DNA from: a virus
Direction: 5' to 3' (one strand)
Length of the DNA stretch: 52,221 bases
Virus record (IMG/VR): IMGVR_UViG_3300035698_011887
Coordinates: 1-52,221 of that record
Part shown: in pieces, positions 30,159 through 38,294 of the stretch
Numbering within the stretch: the first letter of the stretch is position 1
Layout: the number at the start of each line of letters is the position of its first letter
Notes under the pieces: generated by a model
Told to the model about the DNA's origin: nothing
Seen by the model: only the letters and a program-made list of their open reading frames with translations
Database searches by the model: none
Program-made: the position numbers and the translations under genes

Positions 30159-30376
30159 TATTCTTCTTCCAGCAGTTTTTGTTTTAGATACATAACAAGG
30201 TCTAATGCCTCCTGATATGCATCCATCAATGAGTTCCTACCATTATTTGTTTGCAAAGGAGTTCCATATCGGATAGTTCCAATCTCTTCTCTCTTTTGCA
30301 AATCAATTATCACTTGCGGTAGAACATTCTGTGTTCCTTTCTTTGGTTCTGGTTCTCTGATATGTGCTTTTGACAT
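30158..30376 (-). CDS. MazG-like small protein
   Basis: The 72-residue protein with VLPQVIIDLQKREEIGTIRY, then GTPLQTNNGRNSLMDAYQEA and LDLVMYL, resembles a small all-alpha NTP pyrophosphohydrolase-like family seen in phages and actinobacteria. The acidic helix (DAYQEALDL) is compatible with metal binding, but the full EExxE/ExxD set is not evident. TAATG overlaps on both sides place it in the recombination operon. It might sanitise nucleotide pools. Confidence 0.5.
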   Translation of the reverse strand: MSKAHIREPEPKKGTQNVLPQVIIDLQKREEIGTIRYGTPLQTNNGRNSLMDAYQEALDLVMYLKQKLLEEE

Positions 30377-31011
30377 TATACTTCCTTTGGAATTAGATTT
30401 ACTTTTGCAAATTCTCCATGATATTTTAAGGCTGCCTCGTTATAGGCTCTTGCTGCGTCTTTTTTTGTTTCATACATGCCAAGATGTTTTTTATGGTAAT
30501 TAACTGTTATATATGCTTGCCATTTTTTTGCTCCCTTGTCTCTCCACACTCCCTTATAGCCAGATTTATTTTTGCTGTTTACTTTTCTATTCCTACTATT
30601 TTGTTTATTGGTACACACCCTTAGTTTTTCCTTTCGATTATCTAATGTATTGTGGTTTCTATGGTCTATTTGAACATCTCTACTTGGTGTTATTCCCAAT
30701 ACAATGTGCTGCAACCCCACTTTTTTTCTGCCCATGTCTGCATTCACTCTCCCTTGGTGTAAACGCCATTTATATTTTTTAACCTTGTCAACATCTTCGG
30801 CATCAATAAGTGTCCTTGCTACCTCTTCTGACCTTACATTATATAAAACAATTTCTGCAATATCTCCATTGATAATTATTTTATTGGGGTCACTGGTTGT
30901 TCTTTTCTTTATTTTTCCATATCGGGATACCTGCATATAGTGTTTACCACAATATCCTTTTGCATCGTGTATAGAAGAACAGCCAATTACCTTACATATT
31001 CTCTTTGACAC
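30376..31011 (-). CDS. HNH endonuclease with AP2 domain (homing type)
   Basis: The start is GTG 31011, seven bases after GGAGGT; an ATG at 31026 overlaps that site. The 211-residue protein has an N-terminal Cys motif (CKVIGCSSIHDAKGYCGKHY), an HNH_3 core (LQHIVLG, VQIDHRNHNTLDNRKEKLRV) and a C-terminal AP2-like DNA-binding domain (SGYKGVWRDKGAKKWQAYIT, then LGMYETKKDAARAYNEAALK). Such free-standing endonucleases spread by homing. It sits directly after the C-terminal piece of the split SbcC, the second HNH gene of this cluster. Confidence 0.85.
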   Translation of the reverse strand: MSKRICKVIGCSSIHDAKGYCGKHYMQVSRYGKIKKRTTSDPNKIIINGDIAEIVLYNVRSEEVARTLIDAEDVDKVKKYKWRLHQGRVNADMGRKKVGLQHIVLGITPSRDVQIDHRNHNTLDNRKEKLRVCTNKQNSRNRKVNSKNKSGYKGVWRDKGAKKWQAYITVNYHKKHLGMYETKKDAARAYNEAALKYHGEFAKVNLIPKEV

Positions 31012-31609
31012 TGCTGATACCTCCATTTTTAGTTACGGTGAATGTCTTGTCTGCCGAAATATTTATTTCTGTTTGGTGTGACACTATTATTATTTGTAGT
31101 CCCAGCTTTGTGGATAACATTTTGAGCATGTCACTTGCCTTTTCATGCAAATCTCTGGACAAGTTTCTTAGAGGTTCATCTAATACTATGGTACTTCGAT
31201 TCTTTTTCAAAGACCAAAATGATATTCTTAAAGCTAAAGATGCAACATCTACGGGACCAAATCCCGACCCTTCTAATGGATGATACTCATTCCCATGTTC
31301 CTCAAACAACAAGTCGCATTCTGTCTTGTTTCTTCGTGTTACAAATCTGACTACAAACTCTATCTCTTCATCAAATACCGAGCGTATAGCAGTCGTGACA
31401 AGCTTAGAAATATGATATTCAAGATTGCTCTGCGTTATCTGTGCTACTTCTTGGAAGATTATACGAGCCTTCTCTGCGTGTGCTGCTCTGTCCTTATGGA
31501 AGATATAGCTCTCTTCCAAACTTTCAACCTGCTCTTCCAGTAATGTCTTTCTTGCTTTGGCATTTTGGAAGTGTTCTTTTATGGATTCAAATTCTTCTAG
31601 GTTTACCAT
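30992..31609 (-). CDS. sbcC: SbcC/Rad50-like ATPase, C-terminal piece
   Basis: The 205-residue protein has a short coiled coil, then the ABC signature region LEGSGFGPVDVASLALRISF and a Walker B with catalytic Glu, STIVLDEPLRNLS, and a D-loop/H-loop region LQIIIVSHQTEI. It has no Walker A, so it cannot act alone. With the pieces at 31603-31842 and 33626-34708 it makes a complete SbcC/gp46-type ATPase, which with SbcD processes DNA ends for recombination. It overlaps the preceding small gene by seven bases. Confidence 0.85.
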   Translation of the reverse strand: MVNLEEFESIKEHFQNAKARKTLLEEQVESLEESYIFHKDRAAHAEKARIIFQEVAQITQSNLEYHISKLVTTAIRSVFDEEIEFVVRFVTRRNKTECDLLFEEHGNEYHPLEGSGFGPVDVASLALRISFWSLKKNRSTIVLDEPLRNLSRDLHEKASDMLKMLSTKLGLQIIIVSHQTEINISADKTFTVTKNGGISSVKENM

Positions 31610-31842
31610 TCGTAAGAATCCCTCAACTCAGCATATTTTTTGTCGAGTTCCTTCTGGCTTTTCTCCATTTTCTTTTGGATGTCCTGCAATAGTTCGGCAG
31701 CATCTTCAACAGTAGTGACACCAAACCGTTCTTCCATCTGCTTCAGCAATGTTTCGAGCATTCCACCTAACTTGCTTTGCTCTTCCTTTGCATCAGTGAT
31801 AGCCTCTTCTAGTTCATCCAGTTTCTTTTCAATCTCTTCCAT
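31603..31842 (-). CDS. SbcC/Rad50-like descending coiled-coil piece
   Basis: The 79-residue protein is a Lys/Glu-rich coiled coil throughout, with a mid-break FGVTTVEDAAELLQDI that is typical of the descending arm of phage Rad50-like proteins. ATG 31842 stands eight bases after AGGAGG, inside the end of sbcD. Its end overlaps the start of the ATPase C-terminal piece. It most likely supplies the strand of coil between zinc hook and C-terminal lobe. As a separate polypeptide it is unusual. Confidence 0.6.
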   Translation of the reverse strand: MEEIEKKLDELEEAITDAKEEQSKLGGMLETLLKQMEERFGVTTVEDAAELLQDIQKKMEKSQKELDKKYAELRDSYEW

Positions 31843-32779
31843 TCATTACCTCCTTTATTATGTCTAATGTCCCTTGTTCTATATCATTCTCTTTTATATA
31901 TTGTTTCAGGTTCTTTGCATAGTCAAGACCATCAATCTTGACATTATCTTTCAAGCGAGACACGAATGCCTCAAGCTCTTTGTTCTCTTTCTTTTCCTGT
32001 TCGATGGTAGACAAATCAAACACTTTCTCAGAAGGTTCTATAGGTATTAAATGCTTTTCGATTGTCCTATCATCCGTATCATAGATATAAACACATGGCT
32101 CATGGTCAAGCTGTGCTGTTGTCATTCGCATTAGAGAACCACAATTAATGAGATGCCTATTCTTGTAAGAGCATACAAAAGCATTATGATTGTCACCAGA
32201 AACGATAAGATCAAAATTGGTAGTACGCAGTAGTACATTAGCCATTCTAGCATCTTCCTGTCCCTCCCATAGTTTTTTGTTTTTAATTATCATCTTGTGT
32301 ATGACTAAGATATTTATTCCGTCTGTTATTATTTCTGGGATGTCCTCAAACCATGAAGCTCCATATAAATGTACGTTGGAATGAATTATTTTTGGTGGAT
32401 ATTTCCCAGATTCTATTACTTGTGTTGGTTGTGTTTCTTTTGGTTTGCTACCAAGAATAGACAACACACCAGCAGCCTCCAAAACTCTAAGAGGAGTGTT
32501 CTTTGTATCTGAGGAATGGTATCTCAAGTCATGCTGTCCAAATATAGTTTTGATTGGGATATCATTTACATCTTTCAGCGTTTTGATTACTGCCCTCTTT
32601 AGAAAATCATTTGCTTTGTGACTGTCAAAGAAATCTCCCGGCTGTAAGATTAATGAGCAATTGTATTCATGGGCAAGACCAAGGATATGGCACAATTTCT
32701 TATTTTGTGGATAATCATCTATTCTTTTTTTTGGTGGAGCGTTAGTTAAATGCCAATCACCTGTTAGAAGTATTTTCAT
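31829..32779 (-). CDS. sbcD: SbcD/Mre11-like exonuclease (gp47 type)
   Basis: The 316-residue protein carries the calcineurin-like phosphoesterase motifs in order: GDWHL (residues 7-11), LQPGDFFDSHKA, TIFGQHDLRYH (GNHD variant with Gln), INILVIHKMI, IVSGDNHNAF (GxH equivalent SGDNHN). These bind the two Mn ions of Mre11/SbcD nucleases. ATG 32779 has AGGAGG about eight bases upstream. It lies between two halves of sbcC, unlike the usual adjacent order. Confidence 0.87.
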   Translation of the reverse strand: MKILLTGDWHLTNAPPKKRIDDYPQNKKLCHILGLAHEYNCSLILQPGDFFDSHKANDFLKRAVIKTLKDVNDIPIKTIFGQHDLRYHSSDTKNTPLRVLEAAGVLSILGSKPKETQPTQVIESGKYPPKIIHSNVHLYGASWFEDIPEIITDGINILVIHKMIIKNKKLWEGQEDARMANVLLRTTNFDLIVSGDNHNAFVCSYKNRHLINCGSLMRMTTAQLDHEPCVYIYDTDDRTIEKHLIPIEPSEKVFDLSTIEQEKKENKELEAFVSRLKDNVKIDGLDYAKNLKQYIKENDIEQGTLDIIKEVMNGRD

Positions 32780-33629
32780 TTCTTAAACCTCCTTTTTTAA
32801 TTAAATATAGTCGCTTTGTAAATTTAATTTCCGTATTAGGACGAATACCATTTAATTTGTTTCTCTTTGCGACTTCTTTTAAAATTTGTTTTTCCAAACA
32901 TGGCTTTAATCTTGTGTTATTTTTTGAAAGATTGCAATTTTCGCATGATGTTACTAAATTTCTGGCTTCATCCACACCACCTTCATATTTTGGCTTTATA
33001 TGGTCACAATGTAACTTAACACCATCAACGATAGATGAATCACCACAATAAATGCATTTGAATTTGTCTCTTTTAAATATAAGGAAAGTAGCACGTTCAT
33101 CGGCTGCAATTTTATGATGATATTCTATTAAGCATTCTTTAGTACAAAATATTTTGTGCTTCTTTTTTGTGGTGAACTTCTTAGAGCAATTCTTACATAA
33201 TTTTTCTTGCTCTTGTCCTACTGATATATCAAACTCTTTTACCCTATAATACATAGTCGTATATGAACAGGTAAACTTTTTTGCACATTGACGTAGGGAA
33301 AGCCCTTCTTCTTCATAACAATACCTAAGTTTTTCTTCATTTATAACCAATTTTTTTCTCTTTGTGCCCTTTTTCGTTGTAACTTTCTTTGGAATCCTCT
33401 TTGTAACTTTCTTTCTCAACAAACCCAATTTCTTATTTACAGTGATTTTTGAACAGTTGAACTGTGCCATACATTCTTCTATAGTGTACCCAGATTCTTT
33501 ATATAGTTTTACCAGTTTTTTGTCAATCGCATGGCATTTTTTACAACGACACCTATACCCACTTGGCAGGGTGTCAAATTCATCCACCGATTTTTTTTCC
33601 TCACAAGTTCGGCACTTTCTCATGTTCAT
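32757..33629 (-). CDS. HNH endonuclease with zinc and HTH motifs, inserted in the sbcC cluster
   Basis: The start is ATG 33629, six bases after GGAGAAAG and overlapping the sbcC N-terminal stop (ATGA); a longer frame to 33671 exists. The 290-residue protein has an N-terminal Cys motif (CRTCEEKKSVDEFDTLPSGY), two HTH-like helices (YTIEECMAQFNCSKITVNKK; LSLRQCAKKFTCSYTTMYYR), a zinc finger (CKNCSKKF) and an HNH core (FKCIYCGDSSI, LHCDHIKPKYEGG, NLVTSCENCNLSKNN). It is a probable homing endonuclease. Its 3' end overlaps sbcD by 23 bases. Confidence 0.83.
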   Translation of the reverse strand: MNMRKCRTCEEKKSVDEFDTLPSGYRCRCKKCHAIDKKLVKLYKESGYTIEECMAQFNCSKITVNKKLGLLRKKVTKRIPKKVTTKKGTKRKKLVINEEKLRYCYEEEGLSLRQCAKKFTCSYTTMYYRVKEFDISVGQEQEKLCKNCSKKFTTKKKHKIFCTKECLIEYHHKIAADERATFLIFKRDKFKCIYCGDSSIVDGVKLHCDHIKPKYEGGVDEARNLVTSCENCNLSKNNTRLKPCLEKQILKEVAKRNKLNGIRPNTEIKFTKRLYLIKKGGLRNENTSNR

Positions 33630-34708
33630 TTCTTTCTCCAATGTTGTCGATATGCCCCACATTTTGGACAAAAATCATTTTTATTCTCTTTTAGTAGCTG
33701 GGTTCTTTCTTTTATATCTGTTTTGAGTACGTCAGACATTGAATTTAAGGACAATTGAGTATCAAGTATGTCACTGTATAACTTTTCAAATTTGGCGTGC
33801 TTATTTCGCAACTGAGAGAGTTTGACAGATATGGCTTTTGCCTCCTTTACATCATCTTCAATTGAAATGATGTTCTTGGCATTTTCTATTCCCTCTTTCT
33901 TTAGTTCGCATTCCTCTATTAACAAACCAAGAGCTTTTTCTTTTTCCTTCAGCTTTGTTAATCGAGCTTGTCTTTTCTTTATCTGTTTGAATGGCATTTC
34001 AATTTCTAACCACTCGTCAAGCTCATGCAGTTCTGTTTTCTTGTCCCTTATTTTTGCTATTGCCAACTGAAGTTCATCTGCATATTGTTTTGTTGATTGA
34101 AAATTTTTATATACAACATCTATTTGTTCTATCCGATTCCCAACATCTTCCAGACCATCATACTTTTTTAGCTCTTCCCTTTTATCCTTTATCTCATTCT
34201 TGAGCCGTTTACTTTCAGCAAGAGAAGAATTAACTATACTGCTAACAGCGGTGTTGACTTCATGGATTATCTCAAGCCCAACAATCTTGTTCAATGCTTT
34301 AGCTACATTTCCGGGAGTCTCTTGCAGCATGAAAAACTTTTCCGCCTGAGACTGAATATTTATCTTGTCCATGTTGGATATGAGACTGATTTCTTCCGGC
34401 ACATCTGTTCGGAGTGCTTCGAGTTCCAAATCCTGTATGATATACCCATTGAGTCTCTTGTCTCTTGCTCTGGTAATAAAAGAATTGTCATCAAATCCAA
34501 TCGAAACAACTGTGCTGTCTTTATCTGTAGAGAACCAAGATTTGAAATGGAATCCTGATGGTTTGTTTTGGAGTGCCCAAATTATTGCTCGGATGAGTGA
34601 GGACTTACCATGATGACTTGTTCCTTTGATATTGTTCACGCCTTTGTCAAACTCAAGGAGTGAATATTTGTGCCCTTGAAAGTTAGTTACTTCGAGTGCT
34701 TTAATCAT
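33626..34708 (-). CDS. sbcC: SbcC/Rad50-like ATPase, N-terminal piece ending at the zinc hook
   Basis: The 360-residue protein starts MIKALEVTNFQGHKYS, has Walker A NIKGTSHHGKSSLI (about residues 28-40), a Q-loop region NIQSQAEKFFMLQETPG, a long ascending coiled coil, and at its end the zinc hook FCPKCG. Nine residues after the second Cys the frame stops, and the last bases serve as ribosome site for the HNH gene. There is no signature or Walker B; those are in 30992-31609. The protein thus stops where a normal SbcC turns back at its hook. Confidence 0.87.
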   Translation of the reverse strand: MIKALEVTNFQGHKYSLLEFDKGVNNIKGTSHHGKSSLIRAIIWALQNKPSGFHFKSWFSTDKDSTVVSIGFDDNSFITRARDKRLNGYIIQDLELEALRTDVPEEISLISNMDKINIQSQAEKFFMLQETPGNVAKALNKIVGLEIIHEVNTAVSSIVNSSLAESKRLKNEIKDKREELKKYDGLEDVGNRIEQIDVVYKNFQSTKQYADELQLAIAKIRDKKTELHELDEWLEIEMPFKQIKKRQARLTKLKEKEKALGLLIEECELKKEGIENAKNIISIEDDVKEAKAISVKLSQLRNKHAKFEKLYSDILDTQLSLNSMSDVLKTDIKERTQLLKENKNDFCPKCGAYRQHWRKK

Positions 34709-35169: not shown

Positions 35170-35349
35170 TCATCCTTTTTTTATCAACATAAGATCATCT
35201 CTTATGGACTTACAGGATTTGATTAATGTCATCAGTTTTTTCCTTAGACGAGTGCAGGCAACTTTCTGCCCTTTGTCTACTTTCTCTGCATCCGAAAGAA
35301 ATGTATCTACCTCTTGTGACATACGCATAATCTGTGTTCCTATTTTCAT
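35170..35349 (-). CDS. Histone H1-like miniprotein (Hc1-like)
   Basis: The 59-residue product opens at ATG 35349, whose first bases overlap the nuclease stop (ATGA), with AAAGGAGCC upstream. It reads EVDTFLSDAEKVDKGQKVAC, then TRLRKKLMTLIKSCKSIRDD, which closely follows the Hc1/histone H1-like pattern (F..DAEK...GNKAAGTRLRK.L.EL.K.....R..I...K). Such proteins bind or compact DNA. The Cys in the conserved (A)GTR position is unusual. It lies in the recombination operon. Confidence 0.68.
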   Translation of the reverse strand: MKIGTQIMRMSQEVDTFLSDAEKVDKGQKVACTRLRKKLMTLIKSCKSIRDDLMLIKKG

Positions 35350-35789
35350 TGTGGCTCCTTTCTTTTCAATGTTAGTTTCTTTTTTAAGATAAGTTTCGGT
35401 TCCTTCCTTGTCAACTGCGGTGTTGAATTTGCTTTTGAGAGCAAGCCAAAAAAAACTTTAGCATCCAAAACAACAATTGGTTCCTGCCTATTTTTTTTAA
35501 TTACCAATAGCCAATTTGTTCCCTCCTTTTGGTTTTCTTTCGCTTGACGAATGTATGATGGCACAGACCAAGTTTCTTGGTATTTTGCTTCTACACTGAA
35601 TGGGAATTGCTTTTGTGCTTCTCCTACAAGACGAACATCTGTCCCAGATAAACCACTTTCCCTTGTGGAAATCAACTCATCTTTTCCCCACGGTATATTA
35701 AGTAAATTAGATATTTTACTACACATCCATTTTTGTAATCTTTGTCCTTTTGCTTTTTTACTTCTCGTTGTGTTTGCAGTCATAGCCAT
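35346..35789 (-). CDS. PD-(D/E)XK nuclease with basic C-terminal tag
   Basis: ATG 35789 (or 35783) begins a 147-residue protein; the frame is open further upstream to 36092, into the HNH remnant. KAKGQRLQKWMCSKISNLLN is the first helix, ESGLSGTDVRLVG holds the catalytic Asp and FPFSVEAKYQETW gives the E-x-K pair, followed by YIRQAKENQKEGTNWLLVIK; these are typical of phage resolvase- or RecB-like PD-(D/E)XK enzymes. The last 19 residues (KEPKLILKKKLTLKRKEPQ) form a basic tag also found in the RecA-like protein and DNA methyltransferase. Confidence 0.7.
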   Translation of the reverse strand: MAMTANTTRSKKAKGQRLQKWMCSKISNLLNIPWGKDELISTRESGLSGTDVRLVGEAQKQFPFSVEAKYQETWSVPSYIRQAKENQKEGTNWLLVIKKNRQEPIVVLDAKVFFGLLSKANSTPQLTRKEPKLILKKKLTLKRKEPQ

Positions 35790-36477
35790 CCCCAGATATA
35801 AATTTTTTAATAATTGTTTATAATATACTTTCCAGTCTCTTCTACCAAAATTTGCTTTACCATTACATGACCTACACACTGTAGCTAAATTGTCCTCTTT
35901 ACAATTTAATTTGTTGTAATCTATATGATGAATAACTAAATCTTCTGTTGCTCCACAACAAACACAAGTGTGGTTGTCTCTGTTTCTTATTAACTCTTTG
36001 AATTCTGAATCCCTCCATAAAAAACAGTAACCATCATGAGTAATTCCACCCCCTCCAAGAAGGATTATTTGCTCCAGCCATTCTTCCATCACCCAATGCT
36101 TTACTTATTTTATCTCGAACTTCTTTTCTATTTGTTCCATGGTTTTTTGTTATCATGCTTTTTGCTTCTTCGGTATGTTTTTTTCCAAAAAAATGATTTC
36201 TTTTTCCAGATTGAGCAGCACTCATTTTCTTTCTAGTTTCTTTGGTATGTTTTCTTCCAGAGAAACCAGGAGAACACTTACCATACATACTATTAAACTC
36301 TCCTGTATTGGAGCATTTAAGGGAACAGAAAATTGATTCTTTTCTTCTTCCTAAAAATTCAACACCGCAGTTAAGACAATTTTTTATATAGAAGAATTTG
36401 TATCCATCTCTATTGACTAAATTACCATTCTTCGATAGTACAAATTCTTCTATATTATCCCAGCAAATTTTGGGCAT
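35790..36477 (-). pseudogene. NUMOD3-HNH homing endonuclease with frameshift
   Basis: The N-terminal frame (36477-36034) begins after AAGGAAATT and has a Cys pair (NCLNCGVEF, IFCSLKCS) and two NUMOD3 repeats (SGRKHTKETRKKMSAAQSGK; FGKKHTEEAKSMI), ending GANNPSWRGWNYS. The HNH core (HTCVCCGATEDLVIHHIDYN, DNLATVCRSCN) follows in another frame. Removing one base from the five-C run at 36050-36054 joins them as NPSWRGGITHDGYCF, the normal NPxWxGG passage. So the gene is broken by one base or the run is a sequencing error. Its end is fused in frame to the PD-(D/E)XK gene. Confidence 0.75.
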
Positions 36478-36496: not shown

Positions 36497-37372
36497 TCAA
36501 TCCCAAGCATTTTTATCCTTGAAAACATATACTGTTATCCATGGTATTGTTCTCAGCCATGCACCACCTTTGGAGTATCCAGTTCCACCAGAACCAGAAG
36601 CACTTCTACCACGATTATCCATATCATTAACGATTCCACCAGAAGTATTAAATCCAATTCCCCAACCAGAGTTCATTGCTTTAGTTGTTGAACCTTCTCT
36701 TACAACCATTATTTTTGTGCCTTGCATAATACAGGCACTCAGGACAGCTTTTTGCAGCACGATAAATGAAGTGACCATTTCCTTTTTATATTTTGGATTA
36801 GCTGTGATTGTCAGCATTCCAATTGGCTCTACCTTGTTTAAGTCAACTGAGTTTACTACCTCTATTGATTTAGTTGGTTTTTCTTCGTGTCTTCCATTAT
36901 AAGAACCACCACTTGTAATACATTTGCCCTTGCCCCATGCTTTTTCATAGTGCTTTATGGCATGTTCATAAGAATAGTTCTTCTTGAATTTGGTTAGCAT
37001 AGCTAACGGAGTAAATTCGGGACCAGGATTTGCACTTTCATTATATGTTCCTAAGTTAGCAAATACAATATCTGGTGTCCGTAAATATTCTCGTTTTGTT
37101 TCTGCTGCTTCAACTGTCAGTGTCACCCCCTCATTGTTTGCAGACTGCATCTGTCCTTGACCTTGAAGCTGTCCTTGACCCTGCATCTGTCCTTGAATGT
37201 TTGTGTTTGTATTTTTATTGGTGTTTGAGTTCAGATTTGTGTTTGTATTTTTATTGGTATTACAGTTTGTATTTGTGTTAATGTCAACATCCTGTAAACC
37301 AAAAGCAAATGATGGAGCAGAAAGTAATACTGTAAACAGAATTGCAAAAATGATTGTGTATAATTTTTTCAT
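36497..37372 (-). CDS. Exported Asn/Thr- and Gln/Gly-repeat protein
   Basis: The start is ATG 37372, nine bases after GGAGA; the frame extends upstream but with no ribosome site. The 291-residue protein has a Sec signal (KKLYTIIFAILFTVLLSAPS, cleavage near AFA), then an Asn/Thr repeat (NTNKNTNTNLNSNTNKNTNT) and GQ repeats (QGQMQGQGQLQGQGQMQ), and a folded C-terminal part with SPIDVNS-like beta pattern (SIEVVNSVDLNKVEPIGMLT) and a Gly/Ser-rich loop. It is periplasmic or outer-surface by prediction. I know no phage family with this design; host-derived origin is possible. Confidence 0.6.
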   Translation of the reverse strand: MKKLYTIIFAILFTVLLSAPSFAFGLQDVDINTNTNCNTNKNTNTNLNSNTNKNTNTNIQGQMQGQGQLQGQGQMQSANNEGVTLTVEAAETKREYLRTPDIVFANLGTYNESANPGPEFTPLAMLTKFKKNYSYEHAIKHYEKAWGKGKCITSGGSYNGRHEEKPTKSIEVVNSVDLNKVEPIGMLTITANPKYKKEMVTSFIVLQKAVLSACIMQGTKIMVVREGSTTKAMNSGWGIGFNTSGGIVNDMDNRGRSASGSGGTGYSKGGAWLRTIPWITVYVFKDKNAWD

Positions 37373-37385
37373 GGTTTTATTCTCC

Positions 37386-38294
37386 TTATAATTTTGTTGG
37401 TTGCATTTCAATTGGAAGAAAAACAACTGAACCAATTTGCATTTTCTCAGGAACAACGTTCAAATTCAGTTCGTGTATTTTCTTCCAGTTCATTATATCC
37501 CCTGTGTATTTATAAGCTATTGAAGAAAAAGTTTCCCCTTCAATAACTGTGTGGGTAAATGTTTTTGGCTTTTCTTCTAGTCGAATCATTGGCTCTTCTT
37601 TTTCTTCATCTAACTGTAATATCACCTCCTTTATTTGTTTATTTTGTCCGTTTTCTGATAGTCCTTTAAAGACAACAAAACTTCCCATTGAGTTGTAAAC
37701 ATCTTTGACATACTGAGGGTCATAGTTTACATACTGTAAGAGTGCTTTTTCCATGTTGTTGTCATTTTCACCTAAGTATTTTTTAAGCACGTAAGCACCA
37801 GAATCAATGCCTGTTTCAATATCATGGAAATCAAATCTACTCTTCAGTTTGAGCTTCTTTACCCATATAGGCATTACCTGCATCAATCCTCTTGCTCCTG
37901 CTTTGCTTCGCAGTGTTGGATTGAAGTGGCTCTCTCGTTCCATCACTGCAATAATAGGAATGATTGGCAGACCATGCTTGTCTGCTGCAATGATAATATT
38001 TCTTGCTATCTCTGTTGCGACAAGATTAGGAACCGTCTTATTGATTCGGAGTACATAGTCCCTAATATGATTAAAAATCTTCCTCTCTTTCTCTTCGAGT
38101 TCAACTACCTTTAGTGCAAGTGAGTTGTTTGCATCTAAAAGAGTATCAATTTGTTTGTTTGCGGTTTCTATTTCAGATTTGTATGCAAAAATCTGCCAAC
38201 TTATTAACAAAACAAAAATACTAAACATTGATATCCCTAAAACAGTTAATACTTTGCTTTTATCAAGTCCTCTTTTTTCTAATAATTCTGCCAT
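37386..38294 (-). CDS. Membrane-anchored lytic transglycosylase with LysM domain
   Basis: The start is ATG 38294, eight bases after GGAGG. The 302-residue protein has an N-terminal membrane anchor (VLTVLGISMFSIFVLLISWQ), a coiled coil, an SLT-type transglycosylase domain with catalytic Glu in IAVMERESHFNPTLRSKAGA and RGLMQVMP, and a C-terminal LysM (THTVIEGETFSSIAYKYTGD, NWKKIHELN). It cleaves peptidoglycan glycan strands. It sits within the replication arm, apart from the lysis cassette, so it may act early or at entry, or be a second lysis enzyme. Confidence 0.87.
   Translation of the reverse strand: MAELLEKRGLDKSKVLTVLGISMFSIFVLLISWQIFAYKSEIETANKQIDTLLDANNSLALKVVELEEKERKIFNHIRDYVLRINKTVPNLVATEIARNIIIAADKHGLPIIPIIAVMERESHFNPTLRSKAGARGLMQVMPIWVKKLKLKSRFDFHDIETGIDSGAYVLKKYLGENDNNMEKALLQYVNYDPQYVKDVYNSMGSFVVFKGLSENGQNKQIKEVILQLDEEKEEPMIRLEEKPKTFTHTVIEGETFSSIAYKYTGDIMNWKKIHELNLNVVPEKMQIGSVVFLPIEMQPTKL

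Follow-up and report, generated by a model that had tools for sequence, protein, structure and literature searches.

In Rad50 and its SMC kin, an uninterrupted coiled coil is thought to carry ATP-driven changes out from the head to the hook. A virus contig of 52,221 bases from IMG/VR (record IMGVR_UViG_3300035698_011887, referred to throughout, at its full length, as the window) encodes the Rad50 homologue SbcC in three pieces – an N-half that stops at its zinc hook, a small coil protein, and a C-half – accompanied by SbcD and an HNH endonuclease gene. Is this an sbcC gene broken by an invading endonuclease, or a form of SbcC in its own right? A preliminary description of the window took the first view of its cause, proposing endonuclease invasion at the hook and subsequent gene shuffling, and the second of its outcome, a naturally split Rad50. 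Comparison with phage, plasmid, and bacterial relatives shows the proposed cause to be wrong, the observation right, and the truth broader: a Rad50 split in this way is of old standing and occurs in phages, plasmids, and bacteria alike. We favor, with a probability of roughly 0.8, the interpretation that this is the operon of an archaeal-type Mre11-Rad50 (SbcD-SbcC) complex in which Rad50 is by nature three polypeptides, with a head predicted to assemble in trans. The split is apparently a working design, common to phages, plasmids, and Bacillota, and not the result of endonuclease damage.

Organization of the split SbcC genes

The three SbcC pieces, SbcD, and the HNH gene are all located where the preliminary description had placed them, in a run of five overlapping genes on the minus strand in the order N-half, HNH gene, SbcD, coil gene, and C-half. 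The SbcC/Rad50 N-half (33626..34708, minus strand; 360 residues) has a Walker A lobe, an ascending coil, and a terminal zinc hook (CPKC); its C-terminus reads ...NDFCPKCGAYRQHWRKK*, with the stop falling 10 residues past the second hook cysteine. The HNH endonuclease gene (32757..33629, minus strand; 290 residues; Pfam HNH, 2.9e-10) is a lineage-specific insert between the N-half and SbcD. SbcD (31829..32779, minus strand; 316 residues) is an Mre11-like phosphoesterase with the metal motifs GDWH, GDFFD, GQHD, and GDNH, and matches Metallophos (1.9e-9) and phrog_100. It is followed by the separate 79-residue coil protein (31603..31842, minus strand), the proposed distal part of the descending arm, and by the SbcC/Rad50 C-half (30992..31609, minus strand; 205 residues), with a proximal descending helix at residues 4-78, a variant signature GSGFGPVD, Walker B (LDEP), and an H-loop. 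The overlaps are ATGA at the N/HNH junction and ATGGTAA at the coil/C junction. No second SbcC was found in the 52-kb record, which may be a fragment; a second full-length copy was what the preliminary description had named as evidence against a split.

The N-half matches PHROGs of the SbcC/exonuclease type (phrog_16465, 1.8e-28; phrog_77, 5.5e-14), the C-half matches phrog_15167 'ATPase' (7.2e-26), and in comparison with phrog_77 and TIGR00618 the SbcC-like N and C regions are matched in order. The N profile also matches Rad50 N chains in PDB, with its last 70 positions corresponding to the ascending half and tip of the hooks 6zff and 1l8d, and the C profile matches archaeal Rad50 C chains. 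AlphaFold2 models the window N-half (predicted local distance difference test, pLDDT, 80.9; predicted template modeling score, pTM, 0.36) as an N-lobe plus a 156-residue helix (186-341) extending to the hook, with the P. furiosus Rad50 N chains 9a9j_A, 1f2u_C, and 1ii8_A as its best PDB matches. The C-half (pLDDT 90.1) is modeled as helix 4-78 plus a C-lobe, with best matches to 1f2u_D and 1f2u_B. Since the head of Rad50 is present in 1f2u as two chains, the N-half and C-half correspond to complementary chains of a single entry.

Phages with the same division

A single-protein scan of viral contigs with the C-half returned no relatives and a broad C alignment was too divergent, but narrower alignments succeeded, and three viral scans yielded a phage set of 182 loci beyond the window, a few of them from contigs already represented. 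In this search for the same arrangement in other phages, which the preliminary description had suggested, N and C are separate open frames in 168 of the 182 loci, and there is no unsplit member among them (N and C never share one frame). The main gene orders are N-SbcD-coil-C (132 loci, in two of which C is matched weakly a second time) and N-coil-C-SbcD (30 loci). Across the family, a coil open reading frame (ORF) matched by a hidden Markov model, mostly of 76-118 residues, adjoins N or C in nearly all loci, and SbcD is almost always encoded in the same operon or as a fusion with N. What looked like a coil-C fusion at one family locus (L100 in our numbering) was rejected, as it arises from an out-of-frame start with the real coil gene in another frame.

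CxxC sits 2-36 residues before the C-terminus in 162 of the 168 phage N-pieces; in the remaining six the cysteine motif or hook is altered but occupies the same position. These altered hooks (L157, L158, L178, L179, L204, and L250; e.g. CPIFSVPCC and CPVTGEYC) may bind zinc with other spacing or may have lost the ability to do so.

Five phage relatives (L020-L024), whose proteins are 46-70% identical to the query proteins, have the order N, SbcD, coil, C, with the N stop 9-13 residues past CxxC. Microcystis phage Mvi-JY20 has N-SbcD-coil-C with no insert and an N C-terminus of CSQCNRLVLGGNPCQSSS*, and Bacillus phage vB_BboS-125 has N-AP2-coil-C with SbcD further down; this SbcD gene is unannotated (L002 8247-9227; 22426-23352 of NC_048735.1). 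In the 133-kb genome of Microbacterium phage Magritte the N-half (L296 2998-4050), which lacks a hook, and the C-half (L003 284-934) are at least 38 kb apart.

Relatives in bacterial chromosomes and plasmids

Searching 84,980 genomes with a C-half alignment identified at least 233 relatives, 80 of which were analyzed. The gene order among these 80 is mostly SbcD-N-coil-C, and on chromosomes the N, coil, and C genes of the operon are distinct ORFs that lie side by side, overlapping slightly or leaving short gaps; no unsplit member was found here either. The N stop is 6-32 residues past the hook (median 17) in 77 mostly chromosomal N-pieces, drawn from the 80 genome relatives and the first five phage relatives. 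The recurrence of a stop just past CxxC in both phage and chromosomal N-pieces is far beyond chance.

Neighboring genes, named by reading their sequences, fall into several contexts. Bacillaceae, Laceyella, and several Tissierellia have the operon beside recA, usually followed by rny, with ymdB or spoVS farther along; in Syntrophaceticus, Carboxydothermus, and a Deltaproteobacteria metagenome-assembled genome (L050, L064, and L078) it is preceded by NurA and HerA. In seven Clostridia loci the C-half is alone, and those inspected are mostly between folD and rny; six Clostridia genomes with a lone C-half have the N-half, together with SbcD and coil, at another locus. The folD-rny neighborhood of the lone C-half in L035, L043, L072, and L088 is a conserved housekeeping context.

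Plasmid members include SbcD-N gene fusions on some plasmids of Geobacillus, Aneurinibacillus, Paenibacillus, and Brevibacillus. On two Pseudomonas megaplasmids the C-lobe is fused ahead of the N-lobe (L015 5495-8731 and L019 5302-8410), and the fusions terminate GGTCPTCQQSMNGVHAHV* or GGICPTCQQTIGAHSHA*; they are preceded by a coil gene and followed by a diverged SbcD-like gene, which in L015 is without a Pfam match and appears to have degraded metal motifs. Such an arrangement, C before N, amounts to a circularly permuted Rad50 with its opening at the hook. When the Pseudomonas fusion served as the query of a scan, no phage member of this type was returned. On a Cetobacterium plasmid (L018 4445-8849) the N-half is itself interrupted, giving overlapping ORFs of 252 and 123 residues, and an IscB gene lies between the C-half and SbcD. 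A Prevotella plasmid match (L017) was not accepted as a family member because it looks like RecN.

Distribution of split and canonical SbcC

Co-occurrence was scored in a sample of 269 genomes, with 151 drawn evenly from the class of Alkalihalophilus pseudofirmus (Bacilli) and 118 from a Clostridia class. All 19 Bacilli genomes with a C-half also have an N-half, and a twentieth genome has an N-half at a contig edge; 11 Clostridia genomes carry both halves and none carries one alone. Canonical SbcC (TIGR00618, E<=1e-20) is present in only 1 of the 19 split carriers in Bacilli vs 109 of 132 non-carriers (Fisher test, 3.5e-11), and in 0 of 11 vs 49 of 107 in Clostridia (0.0025). For the combined sample the numbers are 1/30 split-positive and 158/239 split-negative genomes, with a Fisher value (9e-12) that ignores genome relatedness. 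Among carriers looked up directly, 5 of 41 have canonical SbcC. Canonical SbcC is thus missing from most carriers, as if replaced by the split form, which would supply an SbcCD for many Bacillota seemingly without one by profile search, including A. pseudofirmus and Shouchella clausii.

Conserved and variant motifs

The Gly and Lys of Walker A (GxSDxGKS/T) and the hook cysteines C347 and C350 are invariant in 59 N-pieces. Walker B residues D144 and E145 are invariant both in 66 C-pieces and in the 183 C-halves of the phage set (including the window), and the H-loop histidine H178 is invariant in the 66 and kept in 155 of the 183. Walker A, hook, Walker B, and H-loop are therefore near-invariant across sequences that are ~20-30% identical.

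Two other head motifs have changed. The ABC signature in the window is GSGFGPVD instead of LSGGE, and in alignments with P. furiosus Rad50 the signature Ser is replaced by Gly in 66/66 and 178/183 C-pieces; SGGE aligns to G-[GFY]-G-[VIPA], followed by an Asp that is invariant in the 66 and nearly so overall. The D-loop Asp is Ser in the window and in 66/66 C-pieces, and in the phage set of 183 it is Ser in 144, Gly in 27, and Asp in 6. The window SbcD also departs from the canonical form, with GQHD and GDNH in place of GNHD and GHxH; GQHD is present in about half of phage SbcDs and GDNH in two thirds, whereas chromosomal SbcDs retain all five canonical metal motifs. The preliminary description had reported all SbcC motifs to be intact, and this holds for Walker A, Q-loop, hook, Walker B, and H-loop, but not for the signature and D-loop, which are changed family-wide. 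The motif decay in split relatives that it had named as evidence against its reading is not seen: hook, Walker A, and Walker B are kept, and the signature is conserved in its altered form.

These substitutions are the basis of an alternative that we consider unlikely, in which the Rad50-like head is non-canonical and uses ATP mainly for clamping or tethering DNA, with the phage SbcD being a weak nuclease or a different phosphoesterase. Conservation of the Ser-to-Gly and Asp-to-Ser changes, the GQHD and GDNH variants of phage SbcDs, and the title of PDB entry 1us8 ('The Rad50 signature motif: essential to ATP binding and biological function') are all in keeping with it, but Walker B has its Glu in every sequence and the signature is followed by Asp in nearly every one, the chromosomal SbcDs have their full set of metal motifs, and most carriers are without canonical SbcC, as if it had been replaced.

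A proposed model for assembly in trans

In the favored three-polypeptide Rad50, the N-half would contribute the Walker A lobe, then the ascending arm, and finally the CxxC hook at its C-terminus; the coil protein would form the distal descending arm, paired with the distal part of the N arm; and the C-half would supply the proximal descending helix, signature, Walker B, and H-loop. N and C would fold together in trans to form one ABC head, two heads would engage around ATP, and zinc would join the hooks of two N-halves. SbcD would bind at the base and trim DNA ends. The coil protein (79 residues) and C helix (75 residues) in the window together approximate the 156-residue N helix, and the phage arm medians are 159 ascending vs 156 descending residues. 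That the pieces of a naturally split Rad50 could assemble, as the preliminary description suggested, is supported by the conserved split, the near-invariant key residues, co-occurrence of the halves even when unlinked, and their complementary predicted folds.

Several observations weigh against this interpretation. The arms of chromosomal members are unequal, with 274 ascending vs 172 descending residues (an N arm ~100 residues longer), so that simple antiparallel pairing is incomplete in these members; equal arm length was accordingly discarded as proof of pairing, since it holds for phages only. The homology of the coil protein is that of a coiled coil only, and its probable place in the arm rests on synteny and conservation. 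With the signature Ser and D-loop Asp replaced, ATP hydrolysis may differ. Lastly, the exclusion of canonical SbcC is uncorrected for phylogeny.

Origin of the cut

The HNH gene is missing from the N-SbcD junction in L020, L022, L024, and Mvi-JY20. There is nothing between N and SbcD in L020 and L022, only a small ORF in L023 and L024, and in L021 other ORFs, among them a different HNH/AP2-type gene. More broadly, the N-SbcD gap is no more than 60 nucleotides in 58 of the 132 phage loci with the N-SbcD-coil-C order, and the longer gaps contain assorted genes. Because close phage relatives are cut in the same way, and in two of them SbcD comes directly after N, the HNH gene is a later passenger, unnecessary for the split. 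It is thus very improbable that this lineage was split, as the preliminary description proposed, by an HNH homing endonuclease entering a full-length sbcC at the hook, with gene shuffling afterwards. HNH and AP2 genes are indeed at or near the N end in the window, L021, and vB_BboS-125, but the same cut without an endonuclease in L020, L022, Mvi-JY20, and chromosomal operons, and the varied contents of the gaps (e.g. thyX-like or lipoprotein-like ORFs), speak against this origin. In two phage loci, ThyX-like genes preceded by kinase-like genes lie between the N-half and SbcD (L156 3981-4637 and L167 3562-4248).

It is hardly credible, either, that the pieces are a decaying or frameshifted sbcC, with only SbcD, or nothing, functional; although they are short, the arrangement is unrecognized by PHROG, Pfam, and NCBIfam, and a few members have extra breaks (L042, L083, and the Cetobacterium plasmid), the key motifs are near-invariant at the low identities noted above and the halves are kept together in distant genomes and at unlinked loci. 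Least credible is that programmed frameshifting, read-through of stops, or protein trans-splicing still yields one full-length SbcC, as the adjacency of N, coil, and C in chromosomal operons might suggest, because these routes are excluded at loci where SbcD intervenes (between N and coil in the window and 132 phage loci) or the pieces are unlinked (in six genomes, and in Magritte), and no intein halves were found at the break, where an N stop 2-36 residues past CxxC leaves no room for an intein-sized domain.

In a combined tree of both lobes, built without an unsplit outgroup, a large phage clade is separated from a second one that groups chromosomal, Bacillus-phage, and plasmid members; some supports are low. 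The cut is probably ancestral to this large phage/plasmid/Bacillota family; since the tree has some low supports and no unsplit outgroup, a single origin is suggested by parsimony only.

Relationship to known Mre11-Rad50 systems

The best profile and fold matches of both halves are to archaeal Rad50-Mre11 (P. furiosus and M. jannaschii), which is often in an operon with NurA-HerA; archaeal Mre11 models are likewise the best match of a chromosomal SbcD, and NurA-HerA are the neighbors in the three loci noted above. However, archaeal Rad50 is a single polypeptide and the split family has three, with the signature changed from LSGGE to GGG-V-D and the D-loop from D to S. The two-chain Rad50 catalytic domain of PDB 1f2t/1f2u (149 and 148 residues) also has separate N- and C-lobe chains forming one ABC head, the window N-half resembling 1f2u chain C/A and the C-half chain D/B. 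This two-chain split is a crystallographer's engineered construct and is without arms, whereas the phage split is natural and retains the hook and coil protein. Bacterial SbcCD and phage T4 gp46/gp47 (phrog_77, TIGR00618) are the same protein pair by homology, but SbcC/gp46 is single-chain, and in genomes the split form nearly excludes single-chain SbcC.

The nearest precedent is provided by Mre11/Rad50 fusions with SbcD ahead of SbcC and one ATPase segment missing (Yoshida et al. 2011, PMC3175470), such fusions having been reported from Bacillus phage 0305phi8-36 and Anaerostipes; the passages of that paper concerned with the fusions report neither a separate gene for the missing half nor a split family. 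Full-text literature searches, with most subscription papers outside their coverage, returned no prior report of a naturally split or permuted Rad50/SbcC, and NCBIfam, Pfam, and PHROGs returned no model naming the split form. In the PHROG library the N-half is PHROG 16465 'exonuclease' and the C-half PHROG 15167 'ATPase', unlinked to each other, and the family gives meaning to phage genes labeled 'exonuclease', 'ATPase', or 'hypothetical'.

We think it fairly probable that these genes represent a Rad50 branch without a continuous head-hook chain, having a two-gene head, an exchangeable arm as a third subunit, and halves that are possibly far apart, and that this branch replaces canonical SbcCD in about one tenth of the sampled Bacilli and Clostridia species and serves many phages. 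A family in which Rad50 is interrupted at the hook and the returning arm has become a loose subunit is a natural and direct test of signaling along the coil between head and hook, for which the Pseudomonas C-N fusions and the unlinked Clostridia halves are natural controls for dispensable covalent links.

Other genes in the window

Downstream of the operon, an HNH-AP2 endonuclease gene (30376..31026, minus strand; 216 residues; phrog_99, 7.4e-37) overlaps the end of the C-half; it is a neighbor and lies outside the complex. Upstream of the split-SbcC genes there is a further HNH endonuclease gene (35346-36092, minus strand; 248 residues), overlapped by a 147-residue ORF with NUMOD3-like repeats (36034-36477, minus strand). 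Homing-type endonuclease genes abound in this stretch, with HNH genes at 35346-36092, 32757-33629, and 30376-31026. Beyond them, 36497-37456 (minus strand) encodes a protein that looks secreted, having NTNxNTN repeats and perhaps a signal peptide.

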